A stretch of 64,000 nucleotides of DNA from Salipiger bermudensis. Its GTDB lineage: Bacteria; Pseudomonadota; Alphaproteobacteria; Rhodobacterales; Rhodobacteraceae. Of the stretch, positions 5,110-35,757 are shown in pieces. Numbering within the stretch: position 1 is the stretch's first letter; every line of letters starts with the position of its first letter. Location: assembly GCF_020171625.1 (NCBI RefSeq), contig NZ_JAIUZY010000009.1, positions 62,001 to 126,000 on the forward strand. Reading direction: 5' to 3'. The notes beneath the pieces are model-generated. The model did no database searches. It saw nothing but the letters and a program-made list of their open reading frames with translations, and was not told the DNA's origin. Position numbers and translations under genes: made by a program.

Positions 5110-5114
5110 CTCCC
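5110..5114. repeat. 5-bp target-site duplication, left copy (CTCCC)
   Basis: CTCCC directly precedes the left terminal inverted repeat and matches the five bases after the right repeat at 35753-35757. It lies 8 bp downstream of the tRNA-Arg CCA. Confidence 0.8.
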
Positions 5115-5138
5115 TGCCAATGCACCATAAGCTTGCAC
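5115..5138 (+). repeat. left terminal inverted repeat of the 30.6-kb transposon
   Basis: It begins TGCCAATGCACC and ends AAGCTTGCAC. All 24 bases match the reverse complement of 35729-35752, and the match stops on both sides. A partial second motif (CATGCACA, 5153-5160) lies further inside and may be another transposase-binding site. Confidence 0.9.
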
Positions 5139-5222
5139 GTTTTGGCGGTTTTCATGCACACCCACTGTCAACCTATATTTGCAGGAGGAACCTATCGTCG
5201 CATTTCCACGATCGCAGATATA

Positions 5223-5273
5223 ATGAGGCACAACTTGAAGCTAAGAACCGAACCAATCACCGTTGAGACCTTA
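5223..5273 (+). other. possible 5' end of a transposon gene, cut by the IS5-family element
   Basis: An ATG at 5223 opens a frame of 17 codons (MRHNLKLRTEPITVETL) that is stopped by the IS at 5274. If the IS and its TA duplication are removed, the frame continues from 6141 as GLWLSKYHP for about 20 more codons before a stop. A purine-rich GCAGGAGGAA lies too far upstream (5181-5190) for a convincing ribosome site. Its position just inside the left end is where a transposase gene would start, but no similarity is recognised. Confidence 0.25.
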
Positions 5274-5283
5274 GGGTCAGGAC

Positions 5284-6080
5284 TCATAGCCAATAGATGA
5301 CGGTTGCCGCGAGGGAGATGGCTGAGAGGAAGACCTTTGGGCAGCGGTCGTAACGCGTGGCGACACGCCGCCAGTCCTTAAGCCTGCCGAACATGATCTC
5401 GATCCTGTTACGCCTTTTGTACCGACGCTTATCGTATGTCACGGTCTTCTTGCGCTGCTTTCGGCTCGGGATGCAGGCGCGTATCCCCTTGTCGTTCAAT
5501 GCTTCTCGGAACCAATCGGCGTCATAACCGCAATCCCCGAGCAGCCAATCGACTTTCGGCAAGTTGCTCACCAAAGCCCGTGCGCCGATGTAGTCGCTGA
5601 CTGTCCCGCGGTCACGAACAGGCTCAGGGGGCATTCGCCATCGTCGCTCGGACCAATGGCGCGACATGGCTCATCTGTCGCAGATGGCGTGCAACTTGGT
5701 ATTCATGCCGCCCTTGGTTCGCCCGATCAGGCGTCCACGCCCCCCTTTTTCACGCCCATGCTGGTCGCTGTGCGGTGTGCCTTCAAATAGGTTGCGTCGA
5801 TCATAACGATCTTCCGTTCGCCGTGATCGGCGGCCAAGCCGACCATCATCCGCGCGAAGATACCCTTGTCACTCCAACGTTTCCAACGGTTGTAGAGAGT
5901 CTTGTGTGGCCCATATTCCGCCGGAGCGTCGCACCAACGTAAATCATTGCGATTTATGAAAATAATCCCACTCAACACACGCCGGCCATCGACGCGAGGC
6001 TTGCCGTGGGACTTGGGAAGGAAGGGCTCCAGGCGCGCCATCTGCGCATCGGTCAACCAGAAGAGATCAGACATGTTCAC
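5284..6080 (-). pseudogene. IS5/IS427-type transposase, interrupted
   Basis: The first frame (5727-6080) reads MNMSDLFWLTDAQMARLEPF and reaches the first catalytic Asp (MIDATYLKAHRTA), then runs into an A5G6 slippery stretch where IS427 elements normally shift frame. The second part (from 5667) holds the second Asp region (GDCGYDADW) and the Glu region (RNRIEIMFGRLKDW). Between them the frame is broken by a short hairpin insertion near 5637-5670 and by a missing base after GGACAG. All DDE regions can be found, but no single or simply frameshifted product can be made. Confidence 0.8.
5637..5670. repeat. hairpin insertion 1 (conserved loop, IS5 element)
   Basis: Arms GCCATCGTCGC (5637-5647) and GCGACATGGC (5661-5670) pair with one bulge around the loop TCGGACCAATGGC (5648-5660), the complement of GCCATTGGTCCGA. 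It interrupts the transposase where related elements have a short continuous peptide. Confidence 0.7.
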
Positions 6081-6140
6081 CGCTCGATTTTCGAGCCGTG
6101 AATCACGCTGCTACCGGGAAATCAATGGGTCCTGACCCTA

Positions 6141-6552
6141 GGCCTCTGGCTATCTAAATACCACCCAACCGCTTGTACTACGCGATCCGCGGGCGGCTCC
6201 ACCTGAAATTGCACCGTCGCCAACCCTCACAACAATCCGGACCTTTGGAGCTCTTACCCGAACTTTCGCTCTTCCGCCTCAGGCTGCTGGTAGGGGCCTC
6301 GCGCCTCGACCGGCCGCTTCCCGCCCCTCCTTATAAGTCACGCCGAGTTCCAAGGGGTGTTCCTGCCTGAGCGGCCGCTTCCATGTCCAGGCAAGGGTGT
6401 CTTCGCACGCGCAGCGGACGGCTGCTCTCCGCCCTCTTGCACCCTCTAGGTGGGGGTCGCTGCACGAAACCTCACCGGGATGGAGCATCATGATGAAGAC
6501 GTCGAAGACGTCTTGCCCGAAATGCGCGAGCGAGCGGTGCGGCCGCTACGAA
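6141..6552. other. gene-free stretch after the IS5 element
   Basis: No convincing gene is seen. The first 60 bases continue the interrupted frame described at 5223. A short dyad (GACGTC AAG-type, about 6500-6514) lies near the end, and the stretch leads into the IS481 remnant. Confidence 0.4.
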
Positions 6553-6699
6553 AATCACGCGCAGCGCAATCGCTGCCTCGCCATGTTCGTGTGCGCCTAC
6601 AACACCGCGCGGCGCGAGAAGACGCTCAAGGGGCCAACGCCGGTGCAATTCATCCGGCGAGCATGGCAGGCCGATCCCGGCCTCATCCACCGATCTCCG
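6553..6699 (+). pseudogene. C-terminal remnant of an IS481-family transposase
   Basis: About 49 codons read NHAQRNRCLAMFVCAYNTAR and then REKTLKGPTPVQFIRRAW. This matches the C-terminal signature of IS481-type transposases, which end with AYN.ARR.KTL.G.TP..FI. The catalytic domain is absent upstream and no IS ends are recognised. It is a dead fragment in the boundary zone between the left transposon end and the peptide-uptake module. Confidence 0.6.
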
Positions 6700-6745
6700 T
6701 GTTTCTTGAACCCGGCGCCATACACCTGGCAGTTGGTGGCCTTGG

Positions 6746-7246
6746 TCAGGCCCGCAGCACCATCGCCACGGCGCAGGCAGCCGTTGCCGGCAGGCGCAGC
6801 ATGTCGTGGATCTGGGCCACGCGTTCGGGCGTGTAGTAGCCCTCTTCATGCAGGATGTTCATCGTCGCGATGACCTTGCCGTTTATGATCAGCGGCAGGT
6901 TCACGACAGAGCCGCAGCCGAGCTTGCCGATCAGCTCGGCATCAGGGAACACCGTGTCGATATCGGCCAGCGTGTTGGACACGAAGGCCTGCTGCCGGGT
7001 CAGCACCTGTTCGAACCAGCGGTTCAGTACGATCGGCTTCTCGCCCGAGGTCGGATAGTTCTCGGCATCGTCGGTATAGGCGCGGCGCGCCACCATGGCC
7101 TCGGTGTCCGAGGTCATCACGGTGAACAGCTTCGCACCCACCGTCGCCTTGGTCAGCGCGCAAAGCGCGTCGAAGGCGGCCTCTTCGGTCGTGGCAGCCG
7201 CGAGGGCGGTGGTGAAATCGGCAAGCGCCTTGTTGGTATCGGTCAT
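6746..7246 (-). CDS. GAF domain protein
   Basis: A 166-aa cytosolic protein made almost entirely of one GAF domain, with an N-terminal helix followed by GAKLFTVMTSDTE and the core GCGSVVNLPLIINGKVIATM. GAF domains bind small molecules or sense redox state. The start overlaps the stop of the upstream ABC ATPase gene (ATGA), so it is translated with the peptide transporter. A stand-alone GAF protein in such an operon suggests a ligand-sensing or modulating role, but no partner domain is present and the function is not known. Confidence 0.85.
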   Translation of the reverse strand: MTDTNKALADFTTALAAATTEEAAFDALCALTKATVGAKLFTVMTSDTEAMVARRAYTDDAENYPTSGEKPIVLNRWFEQVLTRQQAFVSNTLADIDTVFPDAELIGKLGCGSVVNLPLIINGKVIATMNILHEEGYYTPERVAQIHDMLRLPATAACAVAMVLRA

Positions 7247-8034
7247 GCGGGGTCCTTGGTTTCGGATGCCGCCAAAATCACGGGACCGGCATCGGGGTTG
7301 CCGCCTGAGGCGGCATAGAGGTCGCGCGTATAGGGATCGGCGAAACTGCCGTCATAGAGCGCGGTCTTGGGGGCGATCTCGACGATGCGGCCCTTGTTCA
7401 TCACCGCCATGCGATCGCACATGAAGCTGACCACCGGCAGGTTGTGGGTGACCATCAGGTAGGTCAGCCCCTGTTCACGGCGCAGCCGCTTCAGCAGGTT
7501 CAGGATCTCGGCCTGCACCGAGACGTCGAGCGCGCTGGTCGGTTCGTCCAGCAGCATCACCTTGGGTTCCAGCATCAGGGCACGCGCGATGGCGACACGC
7601 TGGCGTTGCCCGCCCGACAGCTGGTGCGGAAAGCGGAAGCGGAAACGCTGGTCGAGGCCAACGGCGCCCAGCATCTCGACAACCTTCTCGCTGCGCTTGC
7701 CGATGCCGTGGATCGCCAGCGGCTCGGACAGCACCGTGTCGATGGTCTTGCGGGGATGCAGCGAGGCGTAGGGGTCCTGGAAGACCATCTGGCAGGTCTC
7801 GGAGAACGCCCGGTCGGTACCATGGCCGCGCGGCTTGCCCAGCACGGATATCTTTCCCGTCCAGTCCGACGCCAGCCCGGCGATAGCCTTCAGCACGGTC
7901 GACTTGCCCGAACCGCTCTCGCCAACCAGCGCGAAGCTCTCTCCCGTCGCCACATCAAAGCTCACGTCGCGCACCACCTTGGTGTCTCCGTAGGAGATAT
8001 CTAGATCCTTCAGGGAAATCGCGGCGCTGCTCAT
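7243..8034 (-). CDS. peptide/nickel-type ABC transporter ATP-binding protein (DppF-like)
   Basis: A 263-aa ATPase with Walker A GESGSGKST (residues 38-46), ABC signature LSGGQRQRVAIARA, Walker B VMLLDEPTSALD and the switch His in MVTHNL. It is the second of two ATPases of a family 5 oligopeptide importer and works at the inner face of the membrane with the DppD-like partner. Start and stop overlap its neighbours by 4 bp, so the subunits are translationally coupled. The substrate is not fixed by sequence; the M24 peptidase nearby favours peptides or N-substituted amino acids. Confidence 0.92.
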   Translation of the reverse strand: MSSAAISLKDLDISYGDTKVVRDVSFDVATGESFALVGESGSGKSTVLKAIAGLASDWTGKISVLGKPRGHGTDRAFSETCQMVFQDPYASLHPRKTIDTVLSEPLAIHGIGKRSEKVVEMLGAVGLDQRFRFRFPHQLSGGQRQRVAIARALMLEPKVMLLDEPTSALDVSVQAEILNLLKRLRREQGLTYLMVTHNLPVVSFMCDRMAVMNKGRIVEIAPKTALYDGSFADPYTRDLYAASGGNPDAGPVILAASETKDPA

Positions 8035-8873
8035 GTGCCTGCTCCTCCGCTGCGGTCCAACACCGGCAGCTCGTCTCGAGTTTCCTGCATGCGTGGCTGT
8101 GCCGACAGCAGGCCCTTCGTGTAGGGATGGCTGGCCTTGTGCAGATCGGCGGCCGCGCAGGCTTCGACCACCTCGCCGCCGTTCATCACCATGATCCGGT
8201 CGCAGTAGCGCGCCACTAGGTTCAGGTCGTGGCTGATCAGGATCAGCCCCATGCCGTTGCCGGTGACAAGCTCTTCGATCAGGTCCAGCACCTGCGCCTG
8301 CACCGAGACATCCAGGGCCGAGGTCGGCTCATCCGCGATCAGCAGCTGCGGGCGTGGGATCAGCATCATGGCGATCATCACCCGCTGTCCCATGCCGCCC
8401 GAAACCTCGTGCGGATACATCTTCGCCACCCGCTCGGGCTCGTTGATGCGGACCGAGTTCAGCATCTCGATCACCCGGGCGTTCAGGTCTCGGCGGGGCA
8501 GGTTTTCATGCACCTGCAGCGCCTCGGCGATCTGGTGGCCAATGGTCATCACGGGGTTCAGAGAGAACTTCGGGTCCTGCATGATCATCGAAATCCGCGC
8601 GCCGCGGATCTGGCGCATCTGGCGGCTGGTCTGCGCCATCAGGTCCAGACCGTCGAAGCGCAGGGTCTTCGCGGTCTGCTTGCCGGGTGCCCGGATCAGC
8701 CGAAGGATCGACCGGCCCGTCATCGACTTGCCCGAGCCGCTTTCGCCGACGATGCCCAGGCGCTCTTCGCGGCCCAGGCTCAGGTTCAGGCCCTTCACGA
8801 CGTCCACAGGCCCCTTGGGGGTGGCAAAGCTGACCCGCAGGTCCTCGATTTCCAGAAGCGGTGCGTCGGTCAT
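8031..8873 (-). CDS. peptide/nickel-type ABC transporter ATP-binding protein (DppD-like)
   Basis: A 280-aa ATPase with Walker A GESGSGKSM, a divergent signature VSGGMGQRVMIAM and Walker B LLIADEPTSALD. The C-terminal region (HPYTKGLLSAQP) is typical of DppD/OppD. It forms the asymmetric ATPase pair with the DppF-like protein. The ATG overlaps the stop of the permease gene upstream. The altered signature is normal for one member of such pairs. Confidence 0.92.
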   Translation of the reverse strand: MTDAPLLEIEDLRVSFATPKGPVDVVKGLNLSLGREERLGIVGESGSGKSMTGRSILRLIRAPGKQTAKTLRFDGLDLMAQTSRQMRQIRGARISMIMQDPKFSLNPVMTIGHQIAEALQVHENLPRRDLNARVIEMLNSVRINEPERVAKMYPHEVSGGMGQRVMIAMMLIPRPQLLIADEPTSALDVSVQAQVLDLIEELVTGNGMGLILISHDLNLVARYCDRIMVMNGGEVVEACAAADLHKASHPYTKGLLSAQPRMQETRDELPVLDRSGGAGT

Positions 8874-9772
8874 TTCTCGCCCCCCTGTTTCGGGTCCAGA
8901 ACGTCACGCAGCCCGTCGCCCAGGAAGCAGAAGCCGAGCGAAACCAGAATGATGGCGAAGCCCGGCATGGTGGCGACCCACCACTGATCCAGGATGAAGG
9001 TCCGCCCGCGCGAGATCATGGCACCCCATTCCGGCAGCGGCGGCTGAGCGCCAAGCCCCAGGAAGCCCAGGCCGGCGGCGGTCAGGATGATGCCGGCCAT
9101 GTCCAGCGTCACCCGCACGATCATCGAGGAGGTGCAAAGCGGCAGCACGTGCCGGAAGATGATCCGTCCATGCGAGCCGCCGACCAGCCGCACCGCCTGG
9201 ATGTACTCGGCATTGCGAAAGGTCAGGGTTTCGGCCCGTGCGATGCGGGCATAGGCGGGCCAGGCGGTGATGGCGATGGCGATGATCGCGTTCTCGATGC
9301 CCGGCCCGAGGGCGGCGACGAAGGCCAGCGCCAGGATCAGCTTGGGCAGCGACAGGAAGACGTCCGTGAGGCCCATCAGAATACGGTCGACCCAGCCGCC
9401 GAAATAGCCGGCGACCGCGCCGATGATCAGTCCGAGGGGCGCGGAGATCACGGCCACGAGCGCCACGATCATCAGCGTGATGCGCGAGCCGTAGACGACG
9501 CGGCTGAAGATGTCGCGGCCCAGCTCATCTGTGCCCATCCAATGCTCGGCCGAGGGCGGCAGCAGGCGGCGTTGCAGGTTCTGCCCAACGGGGCTTTCCG
9601 GCGCGATCCAGGGCGCAAACAGCGCCGTGGCCAGCAGCAGAAGAATGATCAGCAAGCCCGCCACCGCCAGCGGATTGCGCATCAGCGCGCTGAACATGCG
9701 CCAGGCGCGGCCCAAGTTGGCCTGGGTCAGCGTGGCGGGACTGTCGTCCAGAAGCCAGTCACGGGTGCTCAT
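8870..9772 (-). CDS. peptide ABC transporter permease (DppC-like)
   Basis: A 300-aa inner-membrane permease. The start is placed at 9772 (MSTRDWLLDD), where the ATG overlaps the stop of the upstream permease in TGATG; a longer upstream frame is antisense noise. It has an N-terminal membrane helix, the OppC-type sequence HWMGTDELGRDIFSR, five further helices and the EAA loop (EYIQAVRLVGGSHGRII) that contacts the ATPase. Confidence 0.92.
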   Translation of the reverse strand: MSTRDWLLDDSPATLTQANLGRAWRMFSALMRNPLAVAGLLIILLLLATALFAPWIAPESPVGQNLQRRLLPPSAEHWMGTDELGRDIFSRVVYGSRITLMIVALVAVISAPLGLIIGAVAGYFGGWVDRILMGLTDVFLSLPKLILALAFVAALGPGIENAIIAIAITAWPAYARIARAETLTFRNAEYIQAVRLVGGSHGRIIFRHVLPLCTSSMIVRVTLDMAGIILTAAGLGFLGLGAQPPLPEWGAMISRGRTFILDQWWVATMPGFAIILVSLGFCFLGDGLRDVLDPKQGGEK

Positions 9773-10836
9773 CAGCGGCTCCTCGGGTCGAGGACGCGGT
9801 AGAGCACGTCCGACACTTTGTTGATCAGGATGAAGACCGAACCGATGACCAGCGTGGACCCCAGCACGGCGTTCATGTCGGCGTTCAGCAGCGCGGTGGT
9901 CAGGTAGTTGCCGATGCCGGGCCAGCTGAAGACGGTCTCGATCATCACCGAGCCTTCCAGCAGCGCGGCGTAGCTGAGGCCGATGACGGTGATCAGCGGC
10001 ACGCGGATCGGCTTGAAGCCATGCACCCAGATCACCCGCCACTCGGGCACGCCCTTGACGCGGGCGGTGGTGATGAACTCCTGCCCCAGCTGGTCCAGCA
10101 TGAAGCTGCGGGTCATCCGGGCGATGAAGGCCAGCGAGAAGAAGCCAAGGATCGATGCCGGCAGGAGGAGGTGCGAGAGCGCGTTCCGGAAGACATCCCA
10201 GTCACCCGCCAGCGCGGCGTCGATTAGCATGACATTGGTGCGCGCGGGCACGAGCCCTTCGTAGAAGATGTCCAGCCGCCCCGGTCCGGCGACCCAGCCG
10301 AGGCCAGCATAGAACACTGCCAAGCCGACGAGGCCCAGCCAGAAGGCGGGCACTGAATAGCCCAGCAGGGCAAAGACCCGCATCAGCTGGTCGACCCACT
10401 CGCCGCGCCGCGTGGCGGCCCAGACCCCGGCGGGCACACCAAGGACGACCCCGATGAAGATCCCCAGCGTGGCCATCTCCAGCGTCGCAGGGAAGACCCG
10501 CAGCAGATCGTCGGCCACGGGGCGGTTGGTCGAGATCGAGCGGCCAAGGTCGCCCTGCATCACCGACCAGACGTAGTCGAAGAACTGCACCAGCAGCGGC
10601 CGGTCCAGCCCCATGGCGATCCGCGCCGCATCGTATTGCTCTTGCGTCGCGCGGTCCCCGACCACCGAAAGCACGGGGTCGATGGGCACCACGCGCCCGA
10701 TGAAGAAGGTGATTGCCAGCAAGCCCAGGAACGTCAGCGCGGTGACGACGACAAAGCCGCCGATCCCCCGCGCACCGCGTCCCGCCCTGACGGCCATTGA
10801 TGCGTCTGTCGCCAAGGTCTCCGCCTCCTTTGGCAT
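9772..10836 (-). CDS. peptide ABC transporter permease (DppB-like)
   Basis: A 354-aa first gene of the minus-strand operon. It has an N-terminal extension of about 25 residues before helix 1, six membrane segments, a periplasmic loop typical of DppB after helix 1 (GLDRPLLVQFFDYVW) and the EAA loop (EFITTARVKGVPEWRVIW). It is transcribed away from the XRE regulator, across a 97-bp region with an AT-rich dyad. The start could also be a little downstream, since the first 25 residues are poorly conserved in the family. Confidence 0.9.
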   Translation of the reverse strand: MPKEAETLATDASMAVRAGRGARGIGGFVVVTALTFLGLLAITFFIGRVVPIDPVLSVVGDRATQEQYDAARIAMGLDRPLLVQFFDYVWSVMQGDLGRSISTNRPVADDLLRVFPATLEMATLGIFIGVVLGVPAGVWAATRRGEWVDQLMRVFALLGYSVPAFWLGLVGLAVFYAGLGWVAGPGRLDIFYEGLVPARTNVMLIDAALAGDWDVFRNALSHLLLPASILGFFSLAFIARMTRSFMLDQLGQEFITTARVKGVPEWRVIWVHGFKPIRVPLITVIGLSYAALLEGSVMIETVFSWPGIGNYLTTALLNADMNAVLGSTLVIGSVFILINKVSDVLYRVLDPRSR

Positions 10837-10864
10837 CGGTCGAGTGAACTCTCGTGACCAGTGT

Positions 10865-10901
10865 TACAAAGATTTTTTGCTATAGTAAAAAAAATTTTGT
10901 A
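10865..10901. promoter_or_regulatory. AT-rich inverted repeat, probable operator of the XRE-cupin regulator
   Basis: The outer arms TACAAA (10865-10870) and TTTGTA (10896-10901) and the inner arms TTTTTT/AAAAAA are symmetric about 10883, with 12 of the first 14 pairs matching. It lies in the divergent promoter between dppB and the regulator, the expected place for a repressor that controls both transcripts. The bases GCTATAGT in the centre could be part of a -10 element. Confidence 0.55.
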
Positions 10902-10933
10902 GCGTGACGGAAAGGATCTCGGAGGACCCCACC

Positions 10934-11545
10934 ATGGCACGGGAGAAGCAGAAGGCCGAGCCGCAGCTCGGACCGCTTATTCGCAAGCGCCGAAAGCAGC
11001 TTGGACTGACTCTGCAGGCATTGTGCGATAGCGCGGGTGTCTCGGTCGGCTACCTCAGCCAGGTGGAACGCGACAACGCGACGCCCTCGCTGGGGACGCT
11101 GGCGCAGATCGCCGCCGCGCTTGACGTGACGCTGGAATATTTCATCGCCACCCCCGGTCCCTCCGACAGCCTGACCCGCGCCGAGACCCGGCCCCGGTTC
11201 TCTCTGAACGGCTCGTCCATCGGCTACGAGAACCTGGCCACCGAGTTCCCCGGCGCCGAGCTGTCCAGCTACATCCTTCATGTGCCTGCGGGCTATGTCT
11301 CGGAAGTGGTCAGCCACGAGGGAGAGGAGATCATCTACATCCTGGACGGCGAGATCGAGCAGACCCTCGACGGCCAGGTCATCCGGATGAAGGCCGGTGA
11401 CAGCCTGCATTACAGCGGGCTGCGCCCCCATTCCTGGACCAATCCCACCGACAAGCCCGTTCGGATCCTCTGGACGGGAACCCTGGCCGTGCTGAACCGC
11501 AAGGGCGGGATGAAACTACCGGAGATGGTGCAGCTGGAGAGCTGA
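10934..11545 (+). CDS. XRE-family regulator with C-terminal cupin domain
   Basis: A 203-aa protein. The start at 10934 is chosen because GGAGG (10921-10925) lies at the right distance; an in-frame GTG at 10904 has no such site. Residues about 13-70 form a helix-turn-helix (GLTLQALCDSAGVSVGYLSQ), and residues about 110-185 a cupin that would bind an effector. Regulators of this PuuR-like build commonly control amine or peptide use. It is divergent from the permease operon and directly upstream of the binding protein, so it very likely controls both. Confidence 0.9.
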   Translation: MAREKQKAEPQLGPLIRKRRKQLGLTLQALCDSAGVSVGYLSQVERDNATPSLGTLAQIAAALDVTLEYFIATPGPSDSLTRAETRPRFSLNGSSIGYENLATEFPGAELSSYILHVPAGYVSEVVSHEGEEIIYILDGEIEQTLDGQVIRMKAGDSLHYSGLRPHSWTNPTDKPVRILWTGTLAVLNRKGGMKLPEMVQLES

Positions 11546-11588
11546 TCAACACCGTCCCACTCAACTCAACCCCAACAAGGAGAGCCAC

Positions 11589-13178
11589 ATGAGCATGCTG
11601 AAATCCGCGCTGTTTGCCTCGGCGCTTGCGCTGCCACTGGCGGGCACCGCGGCCCTGGCCGACACGCCTGATGACGTCCTGGTTATCGCCCAGAACATCG
11701 ACGACATCGTCGCAATCGACCCGGCGCAGGCCTATGAATTCACCTCGGGCGAGCTGGTCACCAACCTCTACGACCGCCTGGTGCAGTACGATGCGGAAGA
11801 TCCCACCATCCTGGCCCCCGGCATCGCGACCGAATGGGAGGCAGACGCCGACGCCAAGACCATCACCTTCACCCTGCGTGACGATGCGGTCTTCAACTCC
11901 GGCAACCCGGTGACCGCCGAGGACGTGCTGTTCTCGCTCAGCCGCGTCATCAAGCTGAACCTCACGCCCGCCTTTATCCTCGCCCAGCTTGGCTGGACCC
12001 CGGAGAACGTGGACGACATGGTCACCGCCGACGGCAACGTCGTGACGGTGAAATACGAGGGGGACTTCTCGCCTGCCTTCGTGCTGAACGTGCTGGCCGC
12101 GCGTCCTGCCTCCATCGTCGACAAGGCGCTGGTGATGGAGAACGAGGTCGACGGCGACATGGGCAATGCCTGGCTGAACGCCAACTCGGCAGGCTCCGGT
12201 CCCTTCGCGCTGACCGCCTACACGCCGGGTCAGATGGTGCGTATGGCCGCCAACGAGGACTACTTCAAGGGCGCCCCCGAGATGTCCCAGGTGATCATCC
12301 GCCACGTGGCCGAAGCCGCCACCCAGCAGCTGCTGCTGGAACAGGGCGACATCGACATGGCGCGCAATCTGACGCCGGACCAGATTGCCTCGCTGTCCTC
12401 GGACGAGATCAAGGTGGAGACCTTCCCCCAGGCCGCCGTCCACTTCCTGTCGTTCAACCAGAAAACCGAGAGCCTGACCGATCCCGCCGTCTGGGAGGCC
12501 GCGCGCTACCTGGTCGATTACTCCGGCATGACCGACACGATCATCAAGGGTCAGATGGAGGTCCACCAGGCCTTCTGGCCGAAGGGTTTCCCCGGCTCCT
12601 ACGACGAGACGCCCTTCACCTATGATCCCGAGAAGGCCAAGCAGATCCTGGCCGATGCCGGTATCGAAATCCCCATCGAAGTGACGCTGGACGTGATCAA
12701 CGCGGCCCCCTTCACCGACATGGCACAATCGCTGCAGGCCAGCTTCGCCGACGCGGGTATCGAGTTCGAGATCCTGCCCGGCACCGGCGCTCAGGTGATC
12801 ACCAAGTACCGCGAGCGGACCCACCAGGCGATGCTGCTGTACTGGGGACCCGACTTCATGGACCCGCATTCCAACGCCAAGGCCTTCGCCTACAACTCCG
12901 ACAACTCGGACGACAATTACCAGGCCACCACCACCTGGCGGAACGCCTGGGCCGTGCCGGACGAGATCAACGAAGAGACCATGGCCGCCCTGTCGGAAAG
13001 CGATCCTGAAGCCCGACTGGAGATGTACCGTGACCTGCAGGCCAAGGTGCAGGAGAGCTCTCCGATCGTGATCATGTTCCAGGCCTCCTACGAGGTCGCC
13101 ATGGGCGCGGATGTCTCGGGTTACGTCAACGGCGCGACCTCGGACTACGTCTTCTACCGGCTGGTCGAGAAGGAGTAA
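11589..13178 (+). CDS. ABC transporter substrate-binding protein, family 5
   Basis: A 529-aa periplasmic protein with a signal peptide ending LAGTAALA (cleavage near residue 24). The mature part is a family 5 extracellular solute-binding domain, with YEFTSGELVTNLYDRLV near its start and the typical FLSFNQKTESLTDPAVWEA. GGAGAG lies shortly before the start. It delivers a peptide-like solute to DppBC. An ATG at 11595 is an alternative start that would still leave a signal sequence. Confidence 0.92.
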   Translation: MSMLKSALFASALALPLAGTAALADTPDDVLVIAQNIDDIVAIDPAQAYEFTSGELVTNLYDRLVQYDAEDPTILAPGIATEWEADADAKTITFTLRDDAVFNSGNPVTAEDVLFSLSRVIKLNLTPAFILAQLGWTPENVDDMVTADGNVVTVKYEGDFSPAFVLNVLAARPASIVDKALVMENEVDGDMGNAWLNANSAGSGPFALTAYTPGQMVRMAANEDYFKGAPEMSQVIIRHVAEAATQQLLLEQGDIDMARNLTPDQIASLSSDEIKVETFPQAAVHFLSFNQKTESLTDPAVWEAARYLVDYSGMTDTIIKGQMEVHQAFWPKGFPGSYDETPFTYDPEKAKQILADAGIEIPIEVTLDVINAAPFTDMAQSLQASFADAGIEFEILPGTGAQVITKYRERTHQAMLLYWGPDFMDPHSNAKAFAYNSDNSDDNYQATTTWRNAWAVPDEINEETMAALSESDPEARLEMYRDLQAKVQESSPIVIMFQASYEVAMGADVSGYVNGATSDYVFYRLVEKE

Positions 13179-13248
13179 TCCCGCGACCGCCCGCAAGACC
13201 ACAGGGTCGCCGGCTCTCCGGCGGCCCGTTTCGTTTCAGGAGTAGAGA

Positions 13249-15838: not shown

Positions 15839-15853
15839 ATCGTACCTTTCGCG

Positions 15854-17631: not shown

Positions 17632-17641
17632 GCGCGGGGGC

Positions 17642-18883: not shown

Positions 18884-18935
18884 AGTTAATCCTCCCTTTT
18901 TCATGATCTTCCACTCCTCCGTTATCCGGGCCGGG

Positions 18936-21382: not shown

Positions 21383-21403
21383 GCAACTAAGTTTGTTAGT
21401 TGC
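21383..21403. promoter_or_regulatory. 8-bp inverted repeat, probable GntR operator
   Basis: GCAACTAA (21383-21390) and TTAGTTGC (21396-21403) form a perfect dyad with a 5-bp spacer in the divergent region between the GntR gene and the enolase operon. Position and size suit a FadR-type repressor site. Confidence 0.65.
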
Positions 21404-21471
21404 CAAGAAGTCAGCTTGTGCATACGGTTGGCCTGCGCCGGCCGCGTCGGCACGCCAGAGGAGGAAAATTC

Positions 21472-23759: not shown

Positions 23760-23779
23760 CACAACCCGAGGAGCACACT

Positions 23780-28010: not shown

Positions 28011-28025
28011 GTGCCTGTCCCGGGA

Positions 28026-29105: not shown

Positions 29106-29159
29106 TTGGGTTCTCCTCCCTTGGTGTTTGTCTTTTGTCTCATGGTTCTGGCCATCGGG

Positions 29160-29558
29160 TCAGATCAGCTCGAAGCGCTGGCTTGACATGTCCAGCCGCA
29201 GCGTGACCGAGCCTTCGTTGACCATCCACGGGCGCACACGGAAGTCCCGCGCGCCCGCCTTGTGCATCGGATCGCTTTCCGCGATCTGGATCGCCTCGGC
29301 CCGCGATGTGGCGCGCACGACGACCAAGCCCTCGCCTTCCCAGCTTTGTTCGTCATCGGTCCACATGGGACCGGCCGAGTAGAGGATCCCGTCGGCTTCA
29401 AGCTGCACCTGGAATTCCAGGTGCCGGTCAAGATGCTCGAAGACCGGGCCCATGCCGTTCACCGGCGTCGTGAAGATCGCGTAGAGCTGCCTTTGCAGCA
29501 TCTGCTTGCTGGCCTCCTTCACGTCCGATGCCGGTACGGATCTCAGTATCTCTGTCAT
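29160..29558 (-). CDS. YCII-domain protein
   Basis: A 132-aa cytosolic protein. The start at 29558 follows GGGGGGAGA. The YCII-like ferredoxin fold spans about residues 24-115, with conserved LDRHLEFQVQLEADGILYSA holding the His/Asp pair near the putative active site and ESDPMHKAGARDFRVRPW. Relatives are small isomerases or decyclising enzymes in aromatic degradation, such as muconolactone isomerase-like proteins. That fits the dioxygenase in this cluster, but the reaction is not shown by sequence. Confidence 0.82.
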   Translation of the reverse strand: MTEILRSVPASDVKEASKQMLQRQLYAIFTTPVNGMGPVFEHLDRHLEFQVQLEADGILYSAGPMWTDDEQSWEGEGLVVVRATSRAEAIQIAESDPMHKAGARDFRVRPWMVNEGSVTLRLDMSSQRFELI

Positions 29559-29592
29559 GTCTCCCCCCCTTTTGGCTGATCCGGTGGCGCGG

Positions 29593-30738
29593 CTAGCCGG
29601 CCTTGGACCGACGCAGTTCGTCGCGGATTTCAGCACCGTGTTCGTCCAGCACCGGCGGTGCCAGCACATCGGTTTCGGGCGCGCCGTCAAAGTTGTAGGG
29701 CGGGCGCACGGTGGTGAAGGTGCCCAGCTCGCTGCTTGGCACGCTGACCTTGATGCCCAGGTGCTGCGCCTGCGGATCCTCCAGCGCCTCGCCGGCTTCG
29801 TAGGCGGGCGAATGCGGCACCTCGTTCGCGTTCAGCGCCGCGCACCATTCGTCGCGGGTTTTGCTGGCGAAGACCGGCGTGAAGATCGCAATCAAGTCGT
29901 CCTGGTGCCGGATGCGCTGCAGCCGTTCGGCAAAGCGAGGGTCGTCCTTCAACTGCTCCTGCCCGGTAGCGGCCAACAGCCCGTCCCAGAACTTTTCGGG
30001 GCTGGAGAGATGGAAGGCGATCCATTTCCCGTCGCCGCACTGGAAGGTATAGCTTTGCGACACGGTCGGACGCGACAACGGGCCCATCACCTCGCCCACG
30101 GAATAATAGTGGGTGAAGCTGTCCAGGTTGAAATGGCACATGGCTTCCAGCATCGAGATGTCGATGCGCCGCCCCTGCCCGCCCCTCTCGCGTTCGAACA
30201 GCGCCGCGATACAGGCCATGGCCGCATATTGGCCGGTGACCGCATCGGCGATGGCAGGACCGATCACGCGCGGGTTTTCCGGCGGGGTCAGCAGCCGCAG
30301 ATAGCCGCTGGCGGCCTGGGCGACCGAATCGAACACCGGGCGGTCACGGGCGGGCCCGGTGGCCCCCAGCCCCGAGATGGCGCAGTAGACCAGCCGCGGG
30401 TTGATCGCTCGCAGTTCCGCCTCGCCTGCGCCCAGCCTCTCGGCCACGCCGGGGCGGAAGTTCTGGATGAAGATGTCGGCGCTGGCGACCAAGTCATGGA
30501 AGACGGCCAAGTCGTCGGCCTGCTTGGTGTCCAGCGCGATCGACCGTTTGTTGCGGTTGTAGGTCTGGTAATGCGGCGAATAGAGGCCACCCTTGAACGC
30601 CCGGAACGGATCGCCGGTGCCGGGGCGTTCGACCTTGATCACATCCGCGCCCAAGTCGGCCAAGTGCATCCCGCAGGCCGGTCCGGTGATGTATGTGCCC
30701 AGTTCGACGACGCGCACACCCTTGAGAATCTTGACCAT
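29593..30738 (-). CDS. class III (CaiB/BaiF/Frc) CoA-transferase
   Basis: A 381-aa enzyme, full length for the family, with the N-terminal Rossmann-like GVRVVELGTYITGPACGMHL, the following DLGADVIKVERPGTGDPFR and the KRSIALD segment. Family members move CoA between acyl-CoA and a free acid through an aspartyl anhydride. It lies 5 bp from the citrate-synthase-like gene. Together they suggest that the imported acid is activated to a CoA ester and then cleaved or condensed. Confidence 0.92.
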   Translation of the reverse strand: MVKILKGVRVVELGTYITGPACGMHLADLGADVIKVERPGTGDPFRAFKGGLYSPHYQTYNRNKRSIALDTKQADDLAVFHDLVASADIFIQNFRPGVAERLGAGEAELRAINPRLVYCAISGLGATGPARDRPVFDSVAQAASGYLRLLTPPENPRVIGPAIADAVTGQYAAMACIAALFERERGGQGRRIDISMLEAMCHFNLDSFTHYYSVGEVMGPLSRPTVSQSYTFQCGDGKWIAFHLSSPEKFWDGLLAATGQEQLKDDPRFAERLQRIRHQDDLIAIFTPVFASKTRDEWCAALNANEVPHSPAYEAGEALEDPQAQHLGIKVSVPSSELGTFTTVRPPYNFDGAPETDVLAPPVLDEHGAEIRDELRRSKAG

Positions 30739-30743
30739 GCCGA

Positions 30744-31547
30744 TCAGCCCCCATGCTTGGACGACACCGGGCCGTCATAGGTGATGCCCTTGTCGGCGAC
30801 GTTGGACATGATGAACCCGATCGAGCGCAGACTTTCCTCGTAAAGATGCGCCGACAGCCCCGCCGCGCGGGCCAGAAGCGGCACCGCCTTGACCGCCTGC
30901 AGCGGAAAGCCCGCGTCCAGGATCGTCGCCGGGATGGCGCCGGAGACGTTGATCGGCAGCGGCCGACCGGTGATCTCGGGGGCGTACTTGCCCAGGATGC
31001 GCAGCGTCTCGACATACCGGCCGCTGTTGCCGATCTCGTCCGACAGGGCCAGCAGCACGTTCGCGCGGGGGTCGCCCTCGCTGTGCTGGCCGTGGCCCAG
31101 ACCCGGCACTTTCTTTTTGGCGGCGACAAGGTCGTTCAAGCTGGCGATGGCGGCGGTTTCCACATCGGTACCGTCTGCCGCGGTGCGGTCCAGCACCTGC
31201 TGCAGGAACTGGGCGGCGGCCTCGGACGATCCAGCGACCACGCTGCCCATGCCCAGAAGCCCCGCCGACATGGCGCCTTGCCAGGCGTCGGGCCCTGCGG
31301 CCAGCGTCATCCGCGCCGCCTGGACCGACGGCACCAGCCCATGTTCGGCGATCGCCACAAGGCAGGCATCCATCATCCGGCGCTGCGTGGCACTGGGCCT
31401 CTCGCCCAGCACCAGAAGCCAGAAGTAATCGGTGAAATCGATCTTGCCGATCAGGTCGTCACACAGATCCTGACCCCGGATCGTGATGCTGTGGGCGTCG
31501 GAGGTCGAGATCGACGTGAAGTTTTGATCCTGCTTGCCGATGCGCAT
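30744..31547 (-). CDS. short citrate-synthase-superfamily protein (citryl-CoA lyase-like)
   Basis: A 267-aa protein, much shorter than citrate synthase (about 430 aa). It keeps the core around the catalytic His (VPGLGHGQHSEGDPRANVLL, cf. GFGHRVYKTxDPR) and the small-domain end. Short homologues of this type are citryl-CoA or related acyl-CoA lyases. It is first in the minus-strand operon, divergent from the dioxygenase. A lyase splitting a citryl-CoA-like ester made by the neighbouring CoA-transferase is the simplest reading. Confidence 0.85.
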   Translation of the reverse strand: MRIGKQDQNFTSISTSDAHSITIRGQDLCDDLIGKIDFTDYFWLLVLGERPSATQRRMMDACLVAIAEHGLVPSVQAARMTLAAGPDAWQGAMSAGLLGMGSVVAGSSEAAAQFLQQVLDRTAADGTDVETAAIASLNDLVAAKKKVPGLGHGQHSEGDPRANVLLALSDEIGNSGRYVETLRILGKYAPEITGRPLPINVSGAIPATILDAGFPLQAVKAVPLLARAAGLSAHLYEESLRSIGFIMSNVADKGITYDGPVSSKHGG

Positions 31548-31559
31548 TACGTAATCCTT

Positions 31560-31574
31560 TTTCGCATACCGAAA
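31560..31574. promoter_or_regulatory. possible IclR-type operator
   Basis: TTTCG (31560-31564) and CGAAA (31570-31574) form a short dyad with 5-bp spacer in the 128-bp divergent promoter between the lyase and dioxygenase genes. IclR-family sites are often short dyads of this kind. The match could be chance. Confidence 0.35.
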
Positions 31575-31678
31575 TATTTTGCTCTTGCCGAAAGACTACG
31601 GGCCAGCTTAGGGTCACGTCAAGCAGGATTGTTGCGGCGCCATGGATCGCCGCGCAACGAACTGAAAGGGAGGGCGTG

Positions 31679-32542
31679 ATGCGCGATATGAACCAGTTCA
31701 AGATCACCGAAGCCGTCAAGGACAGCTTCAAGACCGAACCGGGCAGCCGATTCGAACAGCTGCTTCACGGGCTGATCGAGCATCTGCACGACTACACCCG
31801 CGAAAACAGCATCACCCATGACGAATGGATGCGCGTGCTGATGTTCCTGTATGACTGCGGGAAAATCTCGACCCCCGAAAGGCACGAATTCATCCTGCTT
31901 TCCGACGTGCTGGGCTTTTCCGCGCTGGTCGACATGATCAACACCCGGGGCGGCGCCACCGAGGGCTCGAACCTAGGGCCCTTCTACCTGGACAACGCGC
32001 CGGTCAAGAAGCTGGGGGCCGATCTGGCTGAGGGGCGCGAGGGCGTCACCGTGCTGGTCCATGGCAAGGTGACCGACATCCTGCACAAGCCCCTGCCCGG
32101 CGCGGTGATCGACACCTGGCAGGCCGATGGCGCGGGCACCTATCCGATCCAGGAACAGGAGCACGGCCAGGACAAGATGGACCTGCGCGGCAAGTTCACC
32201 TGCGACAACCAGGGCCGGTACTTCTACACCACCGTGCTGCCCAAGCCCTATACCGTGCCCTACGACGGCCCCGTCGGCGAGCTGCTGCGCGCCGGCAACC
32301 GCCACGCCTGGCGCGCCGCGCATCTGCATTACATTGTCTCGGCCCCCGGCATGTCGGCCATCACCACCGAGGTCTTCTTCGAGAACACCGAATACATCGA
32401 CAACGACGCGGTCTTCGGTGTGCGAAAATCGCTCATCGCCAAGTTGCAGCCCGTCCGCAAGGCCGACCAGTTCGACTATGAGCTTGACGTCAAGCCGGAT
32501 GCGGTCTTCGAGTTCGACTTCGTTCTCGCACCGGAAGGCTGA
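31679..32542 (+). CDS. intradiol ring-cleavage dioxygenase (hydroxyquinol 1,2-dioxygenase-like)
   Basis: A 287-aa enzyme. The ATG at 31679 follows GGGAGG; a GTG one codon earlier is equally possible. The N-terminal helical dimerisation domain (about residues 1-95) is followed by the catalytic beta-sandwich. Fe(III) ligands are visible as Tyr in GTYPIQ, Tyr in GRYFYT and the two His of AHLHY. The SNLGPFYLDNAPVK region and length resemble hydroxyquinol and chlorocatechol dioxygenases more than plain catechol dioxygenases. It opens a dihydroxylated or trihydroxylated ring between the hydroxyls. No ring hydroxylase is visible in the cluster. Confidence 0.9.
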   Translation: MRDMNQFKITEAVKDSFKTEPGSRFEQLLHGLIEHLHDYTRENSITHDEWMRVLMFLYDCGKISTPERHEFILLSDVLGFSALVDMINTRGGATEGSNLGPFYLDNAPVKKLGADLAEGREGVTVLVHGKVTDILHKPLPGAVIDTWQADGAGTYPIQEQEHGQDKMDLRGKFTCDNQGRYFYTTVLPKPYTVPYDGPVGELLRAGNRHAWRAAHLHYIVSAPGMSAITTEVFFENTEYIDNDAVFGVRKSLIAKLQPVRKADQFDYELDVKPDAVFEFDFVLAPEG

Positions 32543-32547
32543 TTTCC

Positions 32548-33363
32548 TTGACCGATCCCGCCGACAAACCCAGCGAATTCGTCGACAGCCTGGCCAAGGG
32601 GCTGGCCATCCTCGACGGCTTCGACAGCGCCCATCCCGAGATGACACTGACCGAGGTCGCGCAGCTGGCCAACCTGTCTCCCGCCGCGGCACGTCGCAGC
32701 CTGATCACGCTGGAGCACCTGGGCTACATCGGACGGACCGGCAAGCGGTTCCACCTGACGCCCAAGATCCTGACACTGGGCTCGGCCTTCTACGCCTCGA
32801 CCCGGATCGAGGAGGTGCTGCAACCGGAACTGCGCGGCCTGATCGACAGGTTCGGCGATGCCTCGTCGATCGGAACGCTGGACGGGCATGACGTGATCTA
32901 TGTCGCCCATCTTTCGGTCCAGCGAGCGCGGCGGGCGCAGGCCAATGTCGGCGCACGCTACCCGGCCTTCGCCACCTCGATGGGGCGGGTGCTGGTCGCA
33001 GGCCTGCCGCAGGCCGACCGTATGGCCTGGCTGGCCAGCCTCCGGCCCGATCCGCTGACGTCGAAGACCTGCGTGGACCCCTGCCACCTGGGCGAACAGA
33101 TCGAGGAGGTGCGCGCCAACGGCTATGCCACCACCGTCGACCAGCTGGACTATGGCATCACCGCCATCGCCGTGCCGATCCGCGATGCCGAGGGGCGCAC
33201 GGTCGCGGCGCTGAACAGCTCGGGCTACACCGGGCTGGTCACCCCCGAAATTCTAGTCGCCGAACGCCTGCCCGAGCTGCGCGCGACGGCCTCGCATATC
33301 TCGGCCCAGCTGACACGCTACCCGGTCCTCGGATCGGTCTTGGCGGCTGGCCTCAGCCCTTAA
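32548..33363 (+). CDS. IclR-family regulator
   Basis: A 271-aa protein starting with TTG at 32548, 5 bp after the dioxygenase stop. The N-terminal winged helix (LAKGLAILDGFDSAHPEMTL, LANLSPAAARRSLITLE) and the C-terminal effector domain (about residues 90-260, QLDYGITAIAVPIRD) are complete. It resembles PcaR/PcaU/PobR-type regulators of aromatic catabolism. It probably controls its own transcript and the divergent CoA-transferase/TRAP operon. Confidence 0.9.
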   Translation: MTDPADKPSEFVDSLAKGLAILDGFDSAHPEMTLTEVAQLANLSPAAARRSLITLEHLGYIGRTGKRFHLTPKILTLGSAFYASTRIEEVLQPELRGLIDRFGDASSIGTLDGHDVIYVAHLSVQRARRAQANVGARYPAFATSMGRVLVAGLPQADRMAWLASLRPDPLTSKTCVDPCHLGEQIEEVRANGYATTVDQLDYGITAIAVPIRDAEGRTVAALNSSGYTGLVTPEILVAERLPELRATASHISAQLTRYPVLGSVLAAGLSP

Positions 33364-33394: not shown

Positions 33395-33487
33395 CAGGGC
33401 AATCGCGTTTGGCTTGATCGGCTGCCAGTCCAGTGAAAATGCTGGGCAGGAAGGCTTCGTCCCAGCCTGCGCGCTGGAGCTTCATGG
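33395..33487 (-). mobile_element. ISAs1-family element, terminal 93 bp (right copy)
   Basis: The sequence matches 25135-25227 in the same orientation with about 8 mismatches. It encodes the last residues of the transposase (MKLQRAGWDEAFLPSI). It is cut at 33488-33497 by the IS3-family element. With the left copy it brackets the TRAP/dioxygenase module. Confidence 0.75.
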
Positions 33488-33712
33488 CGATAACTATGAA
33501 TAGCCCCGCGTTTGTTAGACGCCTTCTTGTCTCAGTTTCTGCTGCCGCTCGAACTCGACAGGTGACAGCATTCGGTTCCGCACGTGCTTGCGCTTTGGAT
33601 TGTAGAACATCTCGATGTAGTCGAACACGTCCCGCCGTGCTTCTTGGCGGGTCCGGTAGGTGCGGCGCCTGATCCTCTCGCGCTTGAGGAGGTTGAAGAA
33701 GCTCTCGGGCGA

Positions 33713-33745
33713 GACCTTGTCCGCCATTGGTCCGAGGACAATGGT
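33713..33745. repeat. hairpin insertion 2 (conserved loop, IS3 element)
   Basis: The loop GCCATTGGTCCGA (33723-33735) is enclosed by TTGTCC (33717-33722) and GGACAA (33736-33741); the stem extends by ACC/GGT past one bulged base. It interrupts OrfB between CHDNA and ESFF. Relative to the IS it is oriented opposite to hairpins 4 and 5. Confidence 0.7.
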
Positions 33746-33815
33746 CGAGCGCGTTGTCGTGGCAATTGCCGCGTCGGCTCATGGAATGCTCGAGGTCGTG
33801 GGCTTTTAGGAGTGA

Positions 33816-33848
33816 GCGGGTGAGCGCCACAGGTCCGAGCGCCCCCGC
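33816..33848. repeat. hairpin insertion 3 (conserved loop, IS3 element)
   Basis: The loop GCCACAGGTCCGA (33826-33838) is enclosed by GCGGGTGAGC (33816-33825) and GCGCCCCCGC (33839-33848), which pair at eight of ten positions. It interrupts OrfB after SMDWA. This is the most diverged of the five copies. Confidence 0.6.
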
Positions 33849-34499
33849 GAACGCCCAGTCCATGCTTGTGAACTGGCTGCCCTGATCCGAGTGGATCAGC
33901 ACCTCAGCCTTCGGCTTCCTTCGCCATGTGGCCATGAGCAGAGCTTGGAGCACGACGTCGGTCGTCTGGCGTGACCGCATGCACCATCCGACCACCCGCC
34001 GAGAAAACAGGTCGATTACGACCGCGAGGTAAGCGAAGCCCTCCTGCGTCCGTATGTAGGTGATATCGGTCACCCAGACTCTGTCCGGAGCCTCCACGTC
34101 GAACTGCCGATCCAAGGTTTTGTCGACCACGAGCGAGGGTTTGCCGCCATACTTCCCGGGGCGGCGCTTGTAGCCGATCTGTGCCGTGGTCCCAGCCAGC
34201 CTGGTCAGGTGGGCAACGCGGTTCAGACAAGCGCTTTCGCCCAGATCGAGAAGATCGTTGTGAAGCTTGCCCCTCTCGGGACATTGCTGCGCAATGCCCT
34301 GCCGGGCAGTGGGTGCCCATAGACCTTGCCGCTTTCGACCCAGGCCTCCTTCAGCAGTTCGGTCTGGCGAGCGTCTTCCTGAGCGCGCTTGCTGAGCGGC
34401 GCCTTCACCCACGCATAAAAGCCGCTCGGTTGGATGCGCAGACACCGGCACATCGCCCTAACAGAGAACTGCCCGCGATGCTCGGCCACGAACGCCGTC

Positions 34500-34533
34500 G
34501 CCATTGGGCTCGAACCAATGGCGCCCCAATGGC
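34500..34533. repeat. hairpin insertion 4 (conserved loop, IS3 element)
   Basis: Arms GCCATTGGGC (34500-34509) and GCCCCAATGGC (34523-34533) pair with one bulge around TCGAACCAATGGC (34510-34522), the complement of GCCATTGGTTCGA. It lies at the start of OrfB. Confidence 0.7.
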
Positions 34534-34565
34534 TCCACTCACTTTGCATCCCTGGCGAAATACGC

Positions 34566-34607
34566 GTCGTCATTGTCGCTCGGACCCATGGCGCTCCCAA
34601 TGACGAC
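34566..34607. repeat. hairpin insertion 5 (conserved loop, IS3 element)
   Basis: Arms GTCGTCATTG (34566-34575) and CAATGACGAC (34598-34607) are perfectly complementary. The inner loop TCGGACCCATGGC (34580-34592) is the complement of GCCATGGGTCCGA. It replaces the normal end of OrfA after ILKK. Confidence 0.7.
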
Positions 34608-34848
34608 CCTTTTTTAGGATGTCACGCTCCTCCGAGACCCGCGCCAGCGCCTTCTTCAGGCGCCGGATCTCGGCGTCCTTCTCCGCCTCTCCCGAGGACG
34701 CTTTCGCGAACTTCTTCTTCCAAGCGTAGAGCGAATACGCGCTGCCCCCCAAACGCTCCGACACTTCCCTGACCGGGTAGCCCCGCTCGGTGATCTGCGC
34801 GACCGCGTCCTGCTTGAACTCATCGCTGAACTTGCTGCTGCTCATCAT
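34570..34848 (-). CDS. IS3-family transposase OrfA with altered C-terminus
   Basis: A 92-aa protein with the helix-turn-helix (FKQDAVAQITERGYPVREVS) and the leucine-zipper-like region (EIRRLKKALARVSEERDILK) of IS3-family OrfA. The normal tail after ILKK is replaced by GRHWERHGSERQ, which is encoded by hairpin insertion 5. The A-rich frameshift site needed to make the OrfAB fusion is followed directly by that hairpin. Confidence 0.75.
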   Translation of the reverse strand: MMSSSKFSDEFKQDAVAQITERGYPVREVSERLGGSAYSLYAWKKKFAKASSGEAEKDAEIRRLKKALARVSEERDILKKGRHWERHGSERQ

Positions 34849-34904
34849 GGCCTCCTTGCCTCAAAATTAGCGAAGAAGGCGTCCACGATACACGGGGCTA
34901 TTCG

Positions 34905-35546
34905 GTCGGTTACCCCGCGAACCCCCGGCGCACCCAGGGTGAACTCTGGAACATGGTTCGCCACCAGTGCCGCGAACAGGCCGTCATCGGCCTCTACTAC
35001 GACGAATGCCAGCACGCCTTCACGTCTGGCAAAACGTCCAACGAGAAGCTCCTCGACCGCTTCAAGGCGCTGATGAAGGAGCCGGAATGGCCATTGATGC
35101 TCATCTTGTCAGGCGTCCCGGTCTTGGCCAAGCATGTGAACTCTGAAGAGCAGATCGCCCTTCTCCTCTCCCATATCCATTTCGATGAGATCCACTTGGG
35201 CAAGTTTGCCGATCCGACAAAGGATCCGGACATGCTCGAACTGAACAAGCTCGTCTACACCTATGCCGAACGCGCCGATATCGATGTCGAAGAGCTTGTT
35301 GATGTCGATTCTCTGCAGCGCCTCGATTTTGCCTGCGCTTCCAGATGGGGACTCGTCATCGAGCTGCTGATCCGCGCCTTTGGCTTGTGCAGACTTCGCA
35401 GCCAGAAGAGCGCCACGGTCAAAATGTTCTCCGAGGCCTACGCCCAGAACTCCCGCCTGCCTCAGGGCATGTGCCCCTTCACCGCACCCGGCTATCGCGA
35501 CATGATCGACGGCGACAAACTCATGAGAATGGTGCTGGACGACTAG
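34905..35546 (+). pseudogene. TniB/TnsC-like transposition ATPase, N-terminally truncated
   Basis: The open frame enters from the IS3 end and reads VGYPANPRRTQGELWNM before the ATG at 34953. It contains a Walker B-type YYDECQHAF, then KEPEWPLMLILSGVPVLAKH as sensor 1, and the C-terminal lid and tail (CASRWGLVIELLIRAF). The region with Walker A is missing. This matches TniB/TnsC/MuB-type AAA+ ATPases, which recruit the transposase to target DNA. It lies about 180 bp from the right terminal repeat, as expected for a core gene of the element. It is not functional in this form. Confidence 0.8.
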
Positions 35547-35566
35547 CGGCAGGCCAATATCGGTAT

Positions 35567-35600
35567 GGACGTTTCAGGGCTCACATTGCGGGCCCTTTTT
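35567..35600 (+). terminator. weak terminator after the TniB remnant
   Basis: AGGGC and GCCCT pair across a loop of about 11 nt, and a run of six T follows (near 35596-35601). The stem is short. Confidence 0.35.
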
Positions 35601-35611
35601 TGGCCGCAGCC

Positions 35612-35624
35612 GTGCATGCTTATG
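35612..35624. repeat. end-like repeat 1 inside the right transposon end
   Basis: GTGCATGCTTATG resembles the inner part of the terminal repeat (GTGCAAGCTTATG, 35729-35741) with one mismatch. It lies 21 bp before a second identical copy. Several such sites at one end are typical of TnsB/TniA/MuA binding arrays. Confidence 0.7.
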
Positions 35625-35632
35625 TGTCAACT

Positions 35633-35645
35633 GTGCATGCTTATG
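35633..35645. repeat. end-like repeat 2 inside the right transposon end
   Basis: GTGCATGCTTATG is identical to 35612-35624 and in the same orientation, with a 21-bp period. It differs from the terminal copy by one base. Confidence 0.7.
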
Positions 35646-35728
35646 CCTTGCAGGGAAGAGCACCCCATGGCAAGCCTCTGAGATACATATGATAATTATG
35701 CCTTATGCAGCCACCGAATCATTTGGGT

Positions 35729-35752
35729 GTGCAAGCTTATGGTGCATTGGCA
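35729..35752 (-). repeat. right terminal inverted repeat of the 30.6-kb transposon
   Basis: It begins GTGCAAGCTTATGG and ends GCATTGGCA. All 24 bases are the reverse complement of 5115-5138. It is followed at once by the target duplication CTCCC. Confidence 0.9.
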
Positions 35753-35757
35753 CTCCC
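35753..35757. repeat. 5-bp target-site duplication, right copy (CTCCC)
   Basis: Identical to 5110-5114. It lies 46 bp before the start codon of the PAP2 gene, so the uninterrupted chromosome would have tRNA-Arg about 55 bp upstream of that gene. Confidence 0.8.

Follow-up and report, generated by a model that had tools for sequence, protein, structure and literature searches.

Evidence for a decayed Tn7-like transposon with catabolic cargo beside a tRNA-Arg gene in Salipiger bermudensis

The transposon Tn7 keeps its transposition genes in a single tnsABCDE row, and TnsABC together with TnsD direct it to a site beside glmS. Passages in two reports describe CRISPR-associated transposons (CASTs) of type I-B2 (PmcCAST) and type I-D (CyCAST) in which a protein of the TnsD/TniQ family picks a tRNA gene and insertion occurs downstream of it; in these CASTs TnsA and TnsB are fused and Cas genes are present, and the tests used tRNA-Val and tRNA-Leu (PMC10293859, PMC11406308). 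CyCAST inserts about 30–33 nt past tRNA-Leu, as stated in one of these passages (PMC10293859). The survey of Benler et al. 2021, which started from models of the core proteins, includes central-carbon and sugar-catabolic genes among Tn7-like cargo and mentions insertion downstream of tRNAs (PMC8649781). Here we analysed a window of Salipiger bermudensis DNA, that is, the whole stretch of 64,000 nucleotides (contig NZ_JAIUZY010000009.1, positions 62,001 to 126,000). With a probability of roughly 0.9, the 30.6-kb block at its positions 5115-35752 is a Tn7-like transposon in decayed and probably immobile form, from a family that homes to tRNA-Arg genes in Rhodobacteraceae and their relatives.

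The family resembles Tn7 in its proteins (a predicted TnsA fold, a DDE-type TnsB, a TnsC ATPase and a large selector of the TniQ family), as well as in its 5-bp duplication, its preferred orientation beside a conserved gene and the cargo between its ends. It differs from Tn7 in its target, which is tRNA-Arg, and in having tniQ and tnsA-B-C at opposite ends; furthermore, only a part of tnsC survives in the window copy. Insertion on the side of a tRNA gene is shared with the tRNA-homing CASTs, and the TniQ of this family presumably reads the tRNA gene. Unlike those CASTs, the element starts 10–19 bp downstream of the tRNA, and TnsA and TnsB are separate proteins. No Cas families were found among the scanned proteins of the window, where no search was aimed at Cas, and in the cargo of relatives the scan covered just a few proteins. 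Selectors that home to tRNAs and metabolic cargo are already on record for Tn7-like elements; the unusual trait here is the split gene order.

The borders of the window element are marked by the following features.
5025-5101, + strand: tRNA-Arg gene (anticodon tct; ARAGORN), the attachment-site gene; the element starts 13 bp past its 3′ end
5110-5114, no strand: CTCCC, left copy of the target duplication
5115-5138, + strand: left end (LE), the tRNA-side terminal repeat, with the end motif at positions 11-24 counted from the tip; relatives have the sequence in common as far as about 5171
35611-35646, - strand: end motif present twice inside the element (CATAAGCATGCAC), with starts at 107 and 128 bp from the RE tip
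35729-35752, - strand: right end (RE), the tnsC-side terminal repeat
35753-35757, no strand: CTCCC, right copy of the target duplication

The original prediction, made from the letters of the window, had proposed a single transposon bounded by exact reverse complements with CTCCC outside them, and these borders hold to the base. The 24-nt inverted repeats are 100% complementary, and CTCCC adjoins both on the outside. With up to 3 mismatches allowed, the 24-mer matches exactly twice in the window, both times at the termini, against a mean of 0.00 and a largest count of 0 in 100 dinucleotide shuffles. The host assembly (4.74 Mb, 39 contigs) also holds exactly two matches, both those of the element, so the ends are not dispersed through the genome, a finding that would have told against the prediction. 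The end motif, which is probably a TnsB binding site, recurs inside RE at 11, 107 and 128 from the tip and occurs in LE at 11 only. The internal RE motifs are spaced in the window copy as in S. mangrovisoli, and in both the RE tip lies 206 bp past the tnsC stop.

An empty site, expected by the prediction in related genomes, was found when the joined flanks were searched against 20 congeneric genomes (host counted in; this set and the 394 family genomes used below are drawn samples of the genus and of the larger family). One genome (G411) contained an uninterrupted site with 95% identity to the joined flanks, a single CTCCC, and 241 of 253 junction bases identical with 0 gaps; around the junction it was identical over 110 bp leftward and 29 bp rightward. 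A second genome of the set (G088) is also without the element and has a longer and different spacer. As the empty site in G411 holds CTCCC once and aligns without a gap, 5115-35752 came in as a single insertion that duplicated 5 bp, and both its borders and the duplication are demonstrated.

tRNA genes are the classical integration sites of genomic islands, and this block lies directly behind one; moreover, 3′ fragments of tRNA-Arg occur at six loci of relatives. That a tyrosine recombinase integrated an island into the tRNA gene, and that the inverted repeats are a coincidence, is nevertheless extremely improbable, as the right border repeats only CTCCC and no tRNA 3′ end, and the perfect inverted ends and the exact, gapless empty site already contradict it. 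It is also very improbable that the two ends stem from two insertions and that elements have fused to give the block. The family does contain tandem arrangements (L072, L077) and the cargo looks mosaic, but the matching CTCCC copies and the clean empty site indicate a single insertion for the outer pair, with internal mosaicism still true.

A scan of a genome-contig collection with the end pattern gave 40 stretches in 22 genomes, most of them from genera that we take to be Rhodobacteraceae, together with one alphaproteobacterial metagenome-assembled genome and one Hyphomonas. An end with at most 3 mismatches was present in 10 of the 394 sampled family genomes, host counted in. As the original prediction had hoped of a search with the 24-bp end, complete elements with TnsB were among the relatives, and these encode TnsA, a DDE-type TnsB, TnsC and a TniQ/TnsD of 650-690 aa. 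The TnsB profile matches solved TnsB, and its three acidic positions are invariant (5/5). The fold predicted for TnsA is closest to that of Tn7 TnsA (model from 12 sequences, pLDDT 80.6; a 4-sequence model with pLDDT 42.0 was not used). Profiles of TnsA and TniQ gave no sequence match to solved chains, which is not evidence against the folds; the TniQ alignment was made after L046 was dropped for a stop in frame and with L083 and L047 left out. The TnsC of the intact relative matches TniB and AAA_22 above the cut-off.

In these complete elements, tniQ lies at the target-side end, with its stop 137 bp from the LE tip in two of them, and tnsA-B-C lies at the far end and reads out towards it. A 365-aa AAA protein (L029:12810-13907) is encoded upstream of tnsA at all four loci of the family that show tnsA plus its upstream side (L029, L031, L062, L081).

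The Tn7, Tn5053/Tn402 and Mu-like groups have TG/CA tips and a 5-bp duplication in common, and the original prediction had named the Tn7/Tn5053/Mu group, which was right but broad. TnsB, TnsA and TniQ/TnsD in the intact relatives, TnsC there and as a remnant in the window, the TG/CA ends with the 5-bp duplication, the asymmetric end motifs and the preferred site by a conserved gene together place the element among Tn7-like transposons proper rather than with Tn5053 or Mu. The match of intact TnsC to the TniB model would also suit a Tn5053/Tn402-type (TniABQ, no TnsA) or Mu-like element, as would the tips and the duplication. This alternative is largely contradicted by the protein of TnsA fold that complete relatives encode next to TnsB, the 650-690 aa TniQ and the main target tRNA-Arg, and we consider it highly unlikely. 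An IS21-type or Tn5053-type origin, considered for the TG tips and the multiple end repeats, was dropped since the relatives have TnsA, TnsB, TnsC and TniQ.

To describe the target site, 36 LEs and 24 REs were picked by hand and sorted by the sequence just inside each end, where LE and RE diverge beyond the 24 bp; ends outside these sets include G439:C26, G449:C2, G438:C66, G437:C6 and G446:C53. Only tRNAs with their 3′ end facing the element were counted, and L040, with an LE-like tip and a different interior, was scored as a miss. LE began 10–19 bp past the 3′ end of a complete tRNA-Arg gene in 20 of the 36 (16 tct, 3 cct, 1 ccg) and 12–14 bp past a 17–49-bp 3′ piece of tRNA-Arg in a further six (L066, L069, L071, L082, L038, L042), giving 26/36 with tRNA-Arg or its 3′ piece. 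These pieces may be what remained after a later, integrase-borne island used that tRNA as well and displaced the transposon. The recurrent position shows tRNA-Arg to be the main attachment site of the family, with exceptions, and the end sequences combined with this site offer a simple means of finding more such islands.

Several observations weigh against the reading of the window element as a Tn7-like copy from a tRNA-Arg-homing family. No tRNA-Arg was found at 10 of the 36 LEs (L049, L067, L051, L053, L056, L060, L063, L072, L077, L040), and two of the 24 REs (L051, L039) lie beside one; because of these cases, the site and the orientation are strong preferences, not rules. The superposition of TnsA is loose (TM 0.39–0.41, rmsd 7–8), and TnsA matches no Pfam family above the cut-off. 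Close TnsB proteins are rare, with 13 of the 394 family genomes matching at E <= 1e-60 and only two reaching at least 90% identity, of which one is a 135-aa piece. Finally, a plain 5-bp duplication flanks 5 of 14 paired elements, the window's among them, while 3/14 have 7–8 bp or shifted repeats and 6/14 have none.

The longer repeats measure 8 bp in S. mangrovisoli (L058/L068) and 7 bp in Rhodobacter TJ_12 (L071/L065), and the Rhodovulum pair (L063/L077) has a CACTA repeat shifted by 3; possibly, 2–3 extra bases were retained at the tRNA-side end. In S. aestuarii, one of the six pairs lacking a duplication, another Tn7-like tnsABC lies just outside LE. Head-to-tail tandem elements with only 5–6 bp between them (L072:373-425, L077:1703-1756) are what a second copy would produce on entering an attachment site already in use. 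LE/RE pairs of 0.4–1.2 kb with 5-bp duplications occur in Pseudosulfitobacter, Sulfitobacter and Hyphomonas (L049:2083-2985, L067:3416-3815, L051:5510-6684) and resemble miniature inverted-repeat transposable elements (MITE-like derivatives).

Two elements away from tRNA-Arg lie on contigs with repC (S. aestuarii G442:C21, in the L136 region, and Sagittula G437:C10). Such contigs are probably plasmids, and a second targeting route is possible. For the other non-tRNA elements tested, such as G443:C13, the contig carries no repC. A search of the plasmid collection with the TnsB of this family gave 23 matching records, of which a single one exceeds 60% identity, over 120 aa at 73% in Leisingera.

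We propose that TniQ/TnsD, according to its predicted function, would recognise the tRNA-Arg gene and, via TnsC, guide TnsA and TnsB so that the element goes in a few bases beyond the gene, with the tniQ end towards the tRNA and a 5-bp duplication made. The window copy probably arrived complete, and nested insertion sequence (IS) elements may then have caused the loss of tniQ and of the block AAA-tnsA-tnsB-tnsC(5′), with three catabolic cargo modules retained. What is left of the core region is as follows.
5272-6140, - strand: nested IS5-type element, inverted repeat (IR) of 16 nt at 94%, transposase frame split in two
33498-34903, - strand: nested IS3-type element, IR of 41 nt at 78%, rve domain; abuts the truncated tnsC at about codon 111
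34902-35546, + strand: tnsC remnant

The tnsC remnant corresponds to residues 111-324 of an intact relative's TnsC at 91% identity, and residues 1-110 are gone. In searches with the relatives' proteins, tniQ was not found anywhere in the window, and the AAA gene, tnsA and tnsB were not found in its positions 4001-37000, in agreement with the earlier view that almost all core genes had been lost. The IS5-type element begins 157 bp from the LE tip, about where the relatives' tniQ ends (137 bp), and IS-linked deletions are the simplest reading for the lost core genes. An apparent genomic island can thus be a Tn7-like element stripped of its enzymes.

Since a close TnsB is missing from the host assembly (best matches 28% over part of the protein and 24%), the window element is probably stranded and immobile. 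Alternatively, it could still be moved in trans by the TnsABC/TniQ of another element and act as a working, non-autonomous carrier of cargo. Its two terminal 24-mers are intact, as are both copies of the motif inside RE, and the short LE/RE pairs with 5-bp duplications suggest that ends alone can be moved with help. Given the distant host TnsB matches, the tnsC remnant and nested IS elements that look like decay, and the single copy in the genome, we consider continued mobility unlikely. The host does hold other, distant Tn7-like parts: a 634-aa TniQ on contig G000:C25, a 532-aa TniQ with TnsB and TnsC at 23–26% on G000:C22, and a partial TnsB at 28% on G000:C28.

More distant elements from the same bacterial family (L179-L181; genomes G127, G309 and G171) have tnsA-tnsB-tnsC homologs that are 35–52% identical and in the same order. 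Unlike the window family, they carry a 653-684 aa TniQ directly upstream of tnsA, in a four-gene row, and ends of the window type were not found in their 8–9-kb stretches. Literature searches for a Tn7-like family of Rhodobacteraceae, or one that uses tRNA-Arg, brought up no title or abstract opening that names one among open-licence PubMed Central papers. A core-protein survey such as that of PMC8649781 would probably overlook a copy in which a tnsC stub is all that is left. We tentatively suggest that the window element and the relatives that share its ends may form a so far undescribed family of Tn7-like transposons in Rhodobacteraceae, free of CRISPR and split in layout. Such a family would home to tRNA-Arg genes with several different anticodons, take plasmids as its second route as Tn7 does, and leave stranded catabolic islands that core-gene surveys would miss. 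The separate tniQ offers a tRNA-linked TnsD to study outside known CRISPR-associated systems; worth following are the split order of the genes, the variety of tRNA-Arg genes used and the hint of a route via plasmids.

The insertion explains to the base how about 27 kb of catabolic genes came into the host chromosome. The cargo consists of three modules, annotated from their protein families (Pfam).
6746-14343, module 1: on the - strand, a GAF protein, two ABC ATPases and two binding-protein-dependent (BPD) permeases; on the + strand, a helix-turn-helix (HTH)-cupin regulator, a family-5 binding protein and an M24 peptidase
14789-24685, module 2: a sugar-type ABC importer (ATPase, two permeases, substrate-binding protein), SMP-30/gluconolactonase, a short-chain dehydrogenase/reductase, a GntR/FCD regulator, two mandelate-racemase-family enzymes and DUF6772
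26137-33363, module 3: a tripartite ATP-independent periplasmic (TRAP) transporter (DctM, DctQ, DctP), CoA-transferase III, an IclR regulator, a citrate-synthase-like C-terminal part and an intradiol dioxygenase

Module 1 is predicted to serve the uptake and cleavage of peptides. The original prediction was correct in calling the cargo catabolic; such cargo is less unusual for the group than it had held, as passages in PMC8649781 record sugar-catabolic and central-carbon cargo. The DUF6772 protein, used as a cargo marker, was found in 1/20 genus genomes, the host alone. In a plasmid search with a 25-kb cargo query, 338 records matched somewhere, and none of the best 25 of these had a single place covering 80% of the query. 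A Loktanella plasmid is colinear with 6753-14328 (module 1) in one piece of 7.6 kb at 82% identity. A Rhizobium plasmid matches within 15112-24881 in two pieces (24% of the query, 75% identity), and another matches within 26210-31593, also in two pieces (12%, 75% identity). Because different plasmids resemble different modules, the cargo looks like a mosaic of catabolic modules. Relatives carrying the modules without these ends had been named as a finding against the transposon, and they exist in a weak sense only, as single modules elsewhere such as that of the Loktanella plasmid; this fits captured cargo and leaves the border evidence unaffected. A 93-bp repeat (91%) at 25135-25227 and 33395-33487 flanks the TRAP/dioxygenase module and is perhaps a trace of the capture of module 3.

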